This document shows, in pieces, positions 4,112-4,758 of a stretch of 40,773 nucleotides of DNA (within the stretch, counting starts at the first letter, position 1; each line of letters begins with the position of its first letter). The notes under the pieces are model-generated. The model saw only the letters and a list, made by a program, of their open reading frames with translations, made no database searches and was not told the DNA's origin. Source of the DNA: Candidatus Omnitrophota bacterium (GTDB lineage: Bacteria > Omnitrophota > Gorgyraeia > Duberdicusellales > Duberdicusellaceae); the NCBI GenBank assembly GCA_021159015.1, contig JAGGSQ010000029.1, positions 1 to 40,773 on the forward strand. The letters are read 5' to 3'. The position numbers and the translations under genes were made by a program.

Positions 4112-4185
4112 GGGCCCGTAGCTCAGTCGGTTAGAGCAGCTGACTCATAATCAGTTGGTCCGGGGTTCGAGTCCCTGCGGGCCCA
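4112..4185 (+). tRNA. tRNA with CAT anticodon, probably tRNA-Ile2 (lysidine type), otherwise elongator tRNA-Met
   Basis: A 74-base cloverleaf. The 7-bp acceptor stem is GGGCCCG paired with CGGGCCC, the discriminator is A4185, and no CCA is encoded. The anticodon loop CTCATAA gives anticodon CAT, and the T loop is TTCGAGT. A CAT tRNA can be elongator Met or the Ile2 tRNA whose C34 is converted to lysidine by TilS. The acceptor has C4-G69 and C5-G68, pairs known to be recognised by E. coli TilS, so I favour Ile2. It is not an initiator: the first base pair G1-C72 is a normal Watson-Crick pair. The 3' 29 bases recur twice downstream (separate entries). Confidence 0.93.
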
Positions 4186-4360
4186 AAAACTTTGTTCTTT
4201 AAATAGGCGGCAGGTTTAAAGGACTGCCCGGACCAACAAAGGGAGCTTGAGGGAAAAAGTTTCCCTCAAAAAAGCTTTCTCTTCTTCAGAAAGGAAGAGA
4301 GTGACAGCGAAGCGTCAGAGAGGGAAACCTTGGTTTCCCTTAATGAGGAGCGTAAGCGAC
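4157..4360 (+). repeat. Tandem repeat unit 1, beginning inside the tRNA 3' end
   Basis: This 204-base unit starts with the last 29 bases of the tRNA (4157-4185). Next comes an 89-base block (4186-4274) that recurs in unit 2 with about five differences by eye. It contains CCCGGACCAA (4227-4236), the reverse complement of TTGGTCCGGG at 4155-4164 in the tRNA, and a hairpin GAGGGAAA-aag-TTTCCCTC. A variable middle follows, then ACAGCGAAGCGTCA (4304-4317), a perfect palindrome AGGGAAACC-TT-GGTTTCCCT (4321-4340), and the unit-terminal 17-mer TGAGGAGCGTAAGCGAC (4344-4360). No convincing reading frame is present. It could be an inserted element that rebuilds the tRNA end, or a local duplication. Confidence 0.85.
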
Positions 4361-4595
4361 GGTCCGGGGTTCGAGTCCCTGCGGGCCCAGAAACTTTGTT
4401 CTTTAAATAGGCGGTAGGTTTAAAATACCGCCCGGACCAACAAAGGGAGCTTGAGGGAAAAAGTTTCCCTCAAAAAAGTAAACTTCTTTAGGCTATTCGT
4501 GCAGGGGTAACAGCGAAGCTTGTTTTTCCTTCTTGTTTTACTTACAAAGCGAAGCGTCAAAGGGGGACAGCGTCCCCTTGAGGAGCGTAAGCGAC
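4361..4595 (+). repeat. Tandem repeat unit 2, beginning with a detached tRNA 3' fragment
   Basis: This 235-base unit opens with an exact 29-base copy of the tRNA 3' end (4361-4389), then the 89-base block (4390-4478) with CCCGGACCAA at 4431-4440 and a perfect 7-bp hairpin GGCGGTA/TACCGCC near 4409-4431. The middle differs from unit 1 and is longer, with two AGCGAAGC motifs (4510-4519 and 4548-4559). The palindrome slot is filled by a different sequence with the same shape, GGGGAC-AGC-GTCCCC (4563-4577), before the same terminal 17-mer (4579-4595). A hairpin in the same place with unrelated bases suggests that the structure, not the sequence, is kept. Confidence 0.85.
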
Positions 4596-4624
4596 GGTCC
4601 GGGGTTCGAGTCCCTGCGGGCCCA
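4596..4624 (+). repeat. Third copy of the tRNA 3' end (29 bases), closing the tandem array
   Basis: This is an exact copy of the T arm and 3' acceptor strand of the CAT tRNA, starting GGTCCGGGGTTCGAG and ending CGGGCCCA. There is no D arm or anticodon arm in front, so it cannot make a tRNA alone. The sequence after it (4625-4684) does not match the 89-base block, so the array ends here. The order tRNA - unit - fragment - unit - fragment is what two successive insertions at the same tRNA 3' end would leave. Confidence 0.85.
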
Positions 4625-4684
4625 GAGAAAAGCGTTCTTTTAAAGATACAAACCGTAGATTTTAGTATTTTTAAATAAAATTGC

Positions 4685-4758
4685 GGGCACATAGCTCAGT
4701 TGGTTAGAGCGCTACGCTCACATCGTAGAGGTCGCCTGTTCGAATCAGGCTGTGCCCA
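4685..4758 (+). tRNA. tRNA-Val (anticodon CAC)
   Basis: A 74-base cloverleaf. The acceptor stem is GGGCACA paired with TGTGCCC, and the discriminator is A4758. The D arm is GCTCAGTTGGTTAGAGC, the anticodon stem CTACG/CGTAG encloses loop CTCACAT, giving anticodon CAC (codon GTG), and the T loop is TTCGAAT. CCA is not encoded. It lies 60 bases after the last tRNA fragment and 12 bases before the next ATG. I see no clear promoter of its own, so it may be processed from the transcript that starts at the first tRNA. Confidence 0.93.

Follow-up and report, generated by a model that had tools for sequence, protein, structure and literature searches.

How does the 3' end of a single tRNA gene come to stand three times in succession, with structured DNA between the copies? 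This question is raised by positions 4112-4624 of contig JAGGSQ010000029.1 of Candidatus Omnitrophota bacterium, whose 40,773 nt, taken whole, are referred to here as the window. At this locus a tRNA-Met gene is followed by two related units, each closed by a copy of the gene's end. The array is probably a pair of very small, non-autonomous insertion elements of a new family.

All features of the array lie on the forward strand. The target gene, tRNA-Met (CAT), occupies 4112-4185 (ARAGORN and Rfam). Its last 29 nt, GGTCCGGGGTTCGAGTCCCTGCGGGCCCA at 4157-4185, recur exactly at 4361-4389 and 4596-4624, and three exact tandem copies of this 29-mer are far beyond chance. The copies delimit units of 204 nt (4186-4389) and 235 nt (4390-4624), with no open reading frame inside either. 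The original prediction, made from the letters of this stretch, had placed the array and its repeats correctly to the base, had described two related units with a final 17-mer in common, and had noted that neither encodes an integrase; all of this is borne out. A repeat finder extends the left-hand similarity to a 118-nt family of 96% identity (4157-4274 versus 4361-4478) and places the 17-mer, TGAGGAGCGTAAGCGAC, within an identical 48-nt block (4344-4391 and 4579-4626). What had been overlooked is an 11-nt sequence present in both units, CCCGGACCAAC, which is the exact reverse complement of GTTGGTCCGGG at 4154-4164 of the tRNA gene.

This sequence, here called the guide arm, organizes each unit. 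Unit 1 begins with a trailer and 5' leader (4186-4226) that include an outer guide arm, GGACT (4221-4225); the guide arm itself follows at 4227-4237, and then a folded core (4238-4360) running from AAAGGGAG to GCGAC, with hairpins HP1 (4247-4269), HP3 (about 4302-4317) and HP4 (about 4320-4343) and the end motif GAGGAGCGTAAGCGAC. The unit is completed by the first of the two direct copies (4361-4389), the start of which pairs with the guide arm if the upstream tRNA is omitted from the fold. The trailer and leader of unit 2 (4390-4430) lie within the 96% identical block common to unit 1 and are followed by the guide arm (4431-4441), the core (4442-4595) and the second direct copy (4596-4624). 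A covariance model of the core matches unit 1 at 4226-4372 (127.9 bits) and unit 2 at 4430-4607 (83.7 bits). Likewise, the predicted fold of unit 1 beats 199 of 200 dinucleotide shuffles (z -3.45), while that of unit 2 is weaker (z -1.75). The left stem of unit 2 resembles that of unit 1; its right half is another sequence type with equivalent stems. The units are thus not simple duplicates, since their right halves differ while the stems are kept, and the combination of near-identical left halves with two types of right half suggests recombination or two separate insertions rather than simple duplication.

Is the array a peculiarity of this one locus? In other genera, a DNA search of relatives found the core after the genes of tRNA-Lys, -Thr, -Phe, -Asn and -Pro. 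The covariance model, built from 14 copies, detected it in 13/42 genomes of the order, in 33/147 genomes of the class, and in 50 of 285 genomes sampled across the phylum, 49 of these 50 being members of the same class. The core usually lies just behind a tRNA gene (25 anticodons are represented) and sometimes behind 5S rRNA; genomes rich in copies include G109 (about ten), G066 (five) and G317 (four). Local tandem duplication at a tRNA gene, or an assembly artefact, would be in keeping with a single metagenome-assembled genome that has tandem copies here and none elsewhere. However, dozens of independent genomes, the single-contig G094, G064 and G107 among them, have this architecture, it is found at different genes, and the right halves of the two units are not alike. 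We regard this explanation as having a next to negligible chance of being correct; in its form of simple local duplication it was rejected, because the relatives sit at other genes. The original prediction had named a lack of other copies anywhere, together with gradual local duplication in relatives, or an assembly error, as what would speak against a mobile element. Other genomes instead have the core at many different tRNAs, and this recurrence supports well the proposal of a small non-autonomous element that sits at a tRNA gene, carries a copy of its 3' end and is present twice.

Read from the 5' end, the element often opens with 3-10 nt and continues with the arm (9-18 nt), AAAGGGAG, stem 1, an intervening portion, TGACAG(variable)CGTCA, stem 4, GGAG(variable)CGAC and the direct copy of the target. 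A promoter before the arm (TATAAG in some copies) was considered and dropped as inconsistent among copies. In Rfam, only tRNA is matched at gathering level in the window, and five related loci give only weak sub-threshold matches; searches of phages, plasmids and viral contigs returned no match to the element, and the papers searched describe nothing like it. Rfam has no entry for the family, which was previously unlisted and is probably a new one of small non-autonomous insertion elements.

Arm and target are related in sequence. Most copies have an arm (about 9-18 nt) that could pair with part of the 3' half of the upstream gene, being complementary to it. Its complement falls inside the directly upstream tRNA in 58 of 95 copies, spanning the 25 anticodons: in the 5' side of the T-arm (34/58), the variable loop or anticodon stem (14/58), the 3' side of the T-arm (6/58) or the anticodon arm of tRNA-Pro (4/58). 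Three copies (L113, L154 and L187) stand behind 5S rRNA, the 3' end of which is complementary to their arms, and some lie outside RNA genes (G109 a, d, e and f). The direct copy begins 0-2 nt from the arm's complement in most cases and reaches the gene's 3' end, sometimes passing it by 20-40 nt (L054, L057, L051).

Arms fit their own targets far better than those of other copies. Across the 58 copies the mean arm score was 28.0 against a copy's own tRNA and 18.05 against the tRNAs of the others, the former somewhat flattered because these copies were chosen for their best duplex inside a tRNA. Permuted arms scored 18.2 +/- 0.49 on average with a maximum of 20.25, so that 0/20,000 reached the own-tRNA score, and the own tRNA was best or tied for best in 28/58 copies, where about 1 is expected. 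Among 54 unselected copies, compared with whole upstream regions, the values were 24.8 (own) and 17.2 (other; 0/10,000 permutations). It should be noted that the copies are related by descent, so these permutation figures overstate their independence. One genome, G317, by itself displays the match directly. It has four cores that are related to one another, with 92-93% identity among three, at Pro, Thr, Asp and Arg tRNAs, and the arms GGACTTGAAC (Pro), AGAATCGAAC (Thr), GGATTTGAAC (Asp) and GGAATTGAAC (Arg) each track the T-loop of their own tRNA.

Would such a structured, target-matched sequence be better explained as a host non-coding RNA? In that case it would be a trailer of stable-RNA operons that pairs with the precursor and acts in its folding, processing, termination or antitermination; the 3' copy would serve as a decoy, and selection would maintain the match. 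Several observations are consistent with this. The core, about 100-190 nt long, is held by strong compensatory base changes, with four stems supported by an alignment of 69 covariance-model matches. The alignment contains 274 double-change cells, compared with 65 +/- 6 in shuffles, and its covariation score is 0.386, compared with 0.166 when shuffled and at most 0.15 when slid; being fitted to the model, the alignment favours structure, but the margin over both controls is still large. The compensatory changes count towards the insertion-element reading too. The family is also mostly confined to stable-RNA genes, and a long form occurs before tRNAs together with boxA-like motifs. Among minimum-energy structures computed with the upstream gene, the arm pairs with that gene in 64/94 and with the downstream copy in 8/94; among those computed without the gene, the downstream copy is the partner of the arm in 53/94. 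G-U and A-C counts (42 versus 18 in stems 1 and 4, 3 versus 19 in stem 3) conflict between the stems, so that the folding strand may be RNA, top-strand DNA or both. At the related loci, the variable loops and the neighbouring intergenic DNA are rich in mini-hairpins (GCGAAGC, GCGTAAGC, GCGATAGC), as if these had been repeatedly inserted.

The duplexes formed by the arms carry a signature of their own. Forty of 76 distinct arm duplexes are perfect; where mismatches occur, 60/65 are purine-purine and 52 are G-A, the commonest being a tandem GA facing GA at a distance of six to eight nt from the arm's 3' terminus. In L123, L109, L162, L167 and L174 the direct copy is interrupted, exactly where GGTTC meets GA, by an insert of 10-22 nt, and the arms of these copies have GA. 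Tandem sheared G-A pairs with a bulge on one strand are the topology of a kink-turn. This signature points to an arm-copy helix that is kept as a structure, and not to random decay.

The pattern of presence and absence argues against a resident host RNA and for an inserted element. Downstream of the array lies tRNA-Val (CAC; 4685-4758, forward strand; ARAGORN and Rfam), the next gene in a Met-Val-zinc-ribbon locus that is conserved in synteny in more than 20 genomes. The gap between the Met and Val genes is 499 nt in the window, compared with 25 nt in G003, a genome of the same family; it is 6-56 nt in several members of the order and 243 nt in G025, which has the element. The orthologous site is therefore empty in a relative, as the original prediction had proposed for a mobile element. 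G008 retains an internally deleted relic, in which the arm and end motif are kept and the middle of the core is lost, while its congener G036 has a full core. In G066, contigs of 94-131 kb carry cores that are 90-97% identical at tRNAs for Thr, Gly and Leu, always behind the gene, and two further related cores are present, one of them behind Leu-CAA. Because of these empty orthologous sites, the relic and the similar cores at several tRNAs of one genome, gain and loss of the element would be the simplest account. Patchy presence with empty sites, the internally deleted relic of a sister species, the likeness of cores from unrelated loci within a genome and the copies outside RNA genes in G109 all speak against a host RNA, which we consider unlikely, although it is the strongest of the alternatives.

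If the sequence is an inserted element, is it a satellite of a tyrosine recombinase? A Xer-like or phage-type enzyme would act at tRNA attachment sites, and the copy would be the identity block shared by the attP and attB attachment sites. This is the footprint that the original prediction had recognized. The location at tRNA 3' ends and the identity blocks are indeed classical, and tyrosine recombinase genes, of the Xer type, are found in 29/29 of the genomes that were searched for candidate enzymes. Like tRNA-targeted integrative elements and satellites, the array uses a tRNA 3' end, keeps the gene whole through its copy, has the tRNA 3'-end identity block at both ends, and shows tandem insertion. 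However, an attP block normally corresponds to one gene, with one attachment gene per type of element, whereas G066 and G317 have similar cores at three to four different tRNAs, and the family as a whole stands behind 25 anticodons and 5S rRNA, each time with the matching 3' end. The elements are furthermore only about 150-250 nt long and lack any gene. The inverted arm is left unexplained, and the classical footprint is not quite matched because an ordinary attP site would not predict an inverted piece of the target. Thus the 3'-end copy of the original prediction stands, while the integrase-type interpretation is strained by a copy that follows whichever gene is present. An integron cassette with an attC site was also tried and rejected: a true integron integrase (IntI) exceeds the cut-off in only 2/29 genomes, one of them without the element. 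We judge the recombinase satellite to be quite improbable.

A second candidate is transposition of single-stranded DNA (ssDNA) by Y1 (HUH) transposases similar to RAYTs, the transposases associated with repetitive extragenic palindromic (REP) sequences. Such enzymes would recognize hairpins, with the guide paired to the cleavage site. Y1 genes occur in 24/29 genomes, as a rule several per genome, with 11 in G317 and three in the host of the window (on contigs C17, C2 and C26 of G000; L208-L210), and folded ssDNA is compatible with tandem G-A pairs and with mini-hairpins of the GCGAAGC type. REP sequences and bacterial interspersed mosaic elements are, likewise, short hairpin repeats in Y1-rich genomes. 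Yet the presence of Y1 genes does not discriminate between carriers (13/15) and non-carriers (11/14), and the core was found in 0/20 stretches around Y1 genes. To our knowledge Y1 elements make no target duplication. The multi-stem core described here is also much longer than these repeats and is combined with a target-matched arm and a duplicate of the target. This explanation appears to us very unlikely.

The junctions invite comparison with a retroelement resembling short interspersed nuclear elements (SINEs), which would be inserted by target-primed reverse transcription and would have a fixed 3' junction, a variable 5' junction and a variable duplicate. The 3' junction is precise here, often with CGAC right before the target, and the lengths of the duplicate and of the 5' spacer vary. 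A reverse transcriptase partner, which a group II or SINE-like retroelement would need, was rejected, as RVT_1 (PF00078) is present in 5/33 carriers and 26/114 non-carriers of the class sample and absent from the host, and a SINE-like origin is accordingly rated as highly improbable.

Other known systems share single traits with the family. Miniature inverted-repeat transposable elements (MITEs) and miniature bacterial repeats are likewise short, non-coding and dispersed, with inverted ends and a target duplicate, and here the arm and the start of the copy form inverted repeats beside direct copies. Unlike the ends of MITEs, those of this family vary by copy and track the target; moreover, the internal compensatory structure is strong, the duplicate is variable in length, and no parent transposase was found among the families searched. 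Casposons, and presumably miniature elements derived from them, insert at the 3' ends of tRNA genes and duplicate the target, but Cas1 was found in 0/29 genomes and was rejected as a partner; we know of no description of a target-complementary arm in casposons. IS110 elements have a structured RNA of their own, the bridge RNA, part of which is complementary to the target (PMC11208160), and in this respect the family resembles them. In contrast to IS110, no DEDD recombinase is linked to the elements, the arm lies at the outer end and not in an internal loop, and a duplicate is made; IS110 was rejected as a partner, being present in 5/29 genomes and absent from the host and most carriers. As for an omega RNA of the IscB/TnpB kind, the nuclease domain of TnpB was found in 0/29 genomes, and TnpB was dropped as a candidate as well. 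No HEARO-type RNA was matched by Rfam in the window or the five related loci (the IscB gene itself was not searched for), and no parent transposon sharing the ends was found among IS110, Y1, TnpB and Cas1 (DDE families were not searched).

To account for the data, a process must duplicate a stretch that starts at the paired site, and it must use or rewrite the arm. Under the insertion-element reading, the element would leave the target RNA gene intact upstream and come to lie between the gene and a direct duplicate that starts at a point inside the gene, most often in the T-arm, and extends as far as the gene's 3' end or past it. The 5' arm would be complementary to the first 9-18 nt of this duplicate, so that a folded single strand, of RNA or ssDNA, could either form a single hairpin with several stems or pair with the target gene. 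Either arm pairing would help the element to select its site, or the arm would be rewritten to match the site on insertion, and the moving enzyme would act in trans. A more specific version, that a gene-less mobile element of less than 250 nt selects stable-RNA genes through pairing of its 5' arm and, with an arm rewritten at each insertion, is retargeted at every jump, is offered tentatively, as a possibility that we would sooner doubt than accept.

Several results weigh against the interpretation as an insertion element. Mobility is what we infer from the comparisons, as are the part played by pairing and the RNA or ssDNA nature of the intermediate: no transposition event or excised form was seen, and no congeneric pair of empty and filled sites resolves an insertion to the base. 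No further copy of the units was found in the host genome (1.18 Mb, 70 contigs), where the original prediction had suggested looking. No copy contains a gene, and none of the six families tested as the moving enzyme tracks the element. For about a third of the copies no tRNA target was found, in some cases on account of a contig end or an uncalled gene. The duplicate varies widely in length (about 11-60 nt), unlike that of most DDE transposons, and the common descent of the copies, noted above, belongs here too.

The implications differ with the explanation. Elements known from tRNA genes depend on an integrase that recognizes a single site, whereas here one family stands behind many tRNAs and 5S rRNA with an arm that usually matches the target. 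If pairing drives insertion, the family would be a minimal guide-dependent insertion system, possibly self-retargeting, and arm rewriting, if demonstrated, would make the element categorically new. If it is a host RNA instead, it would be a widespread and undescribed partner of stable-RNA precursors. In either case the arm-target rule provides testable predictions for every copy.

Related forms were also noticed. In the long form found before tRNA genes (L153, L155, L157, L164, L180, L182, L189 and L190), the partner of the arm is a boxA-like sequence (GGTTCTTAACAAT, GTGTTTTTAACAG), after which comes a conserved hairpin, ATCCGC..GCGGATATAAG; the 3' part of this form contains a second boxA-like sequence, GTTCTTTG, and ends with AATAAGCTATAGCGAACGAC ahead of the tRNA. 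A sister sub-family (L103, L106, L122 and L125) shares the inner stems. It occupies the opposite strand where convergent tRNA or apparent tmRNA genes have their 3' ends; its 5' motif, ACACYTNTGTAA, is conserved, and its long, A/T-rich hairpin stops at the CCA end. Directly after the long-form element of L189, at positions 800-1125 of that locus, a tRNA gene resembling that of fMet is seemingly split in its anticodon loop, as read by eye, by an insert of ~230 nt that is possibly a group I intron.
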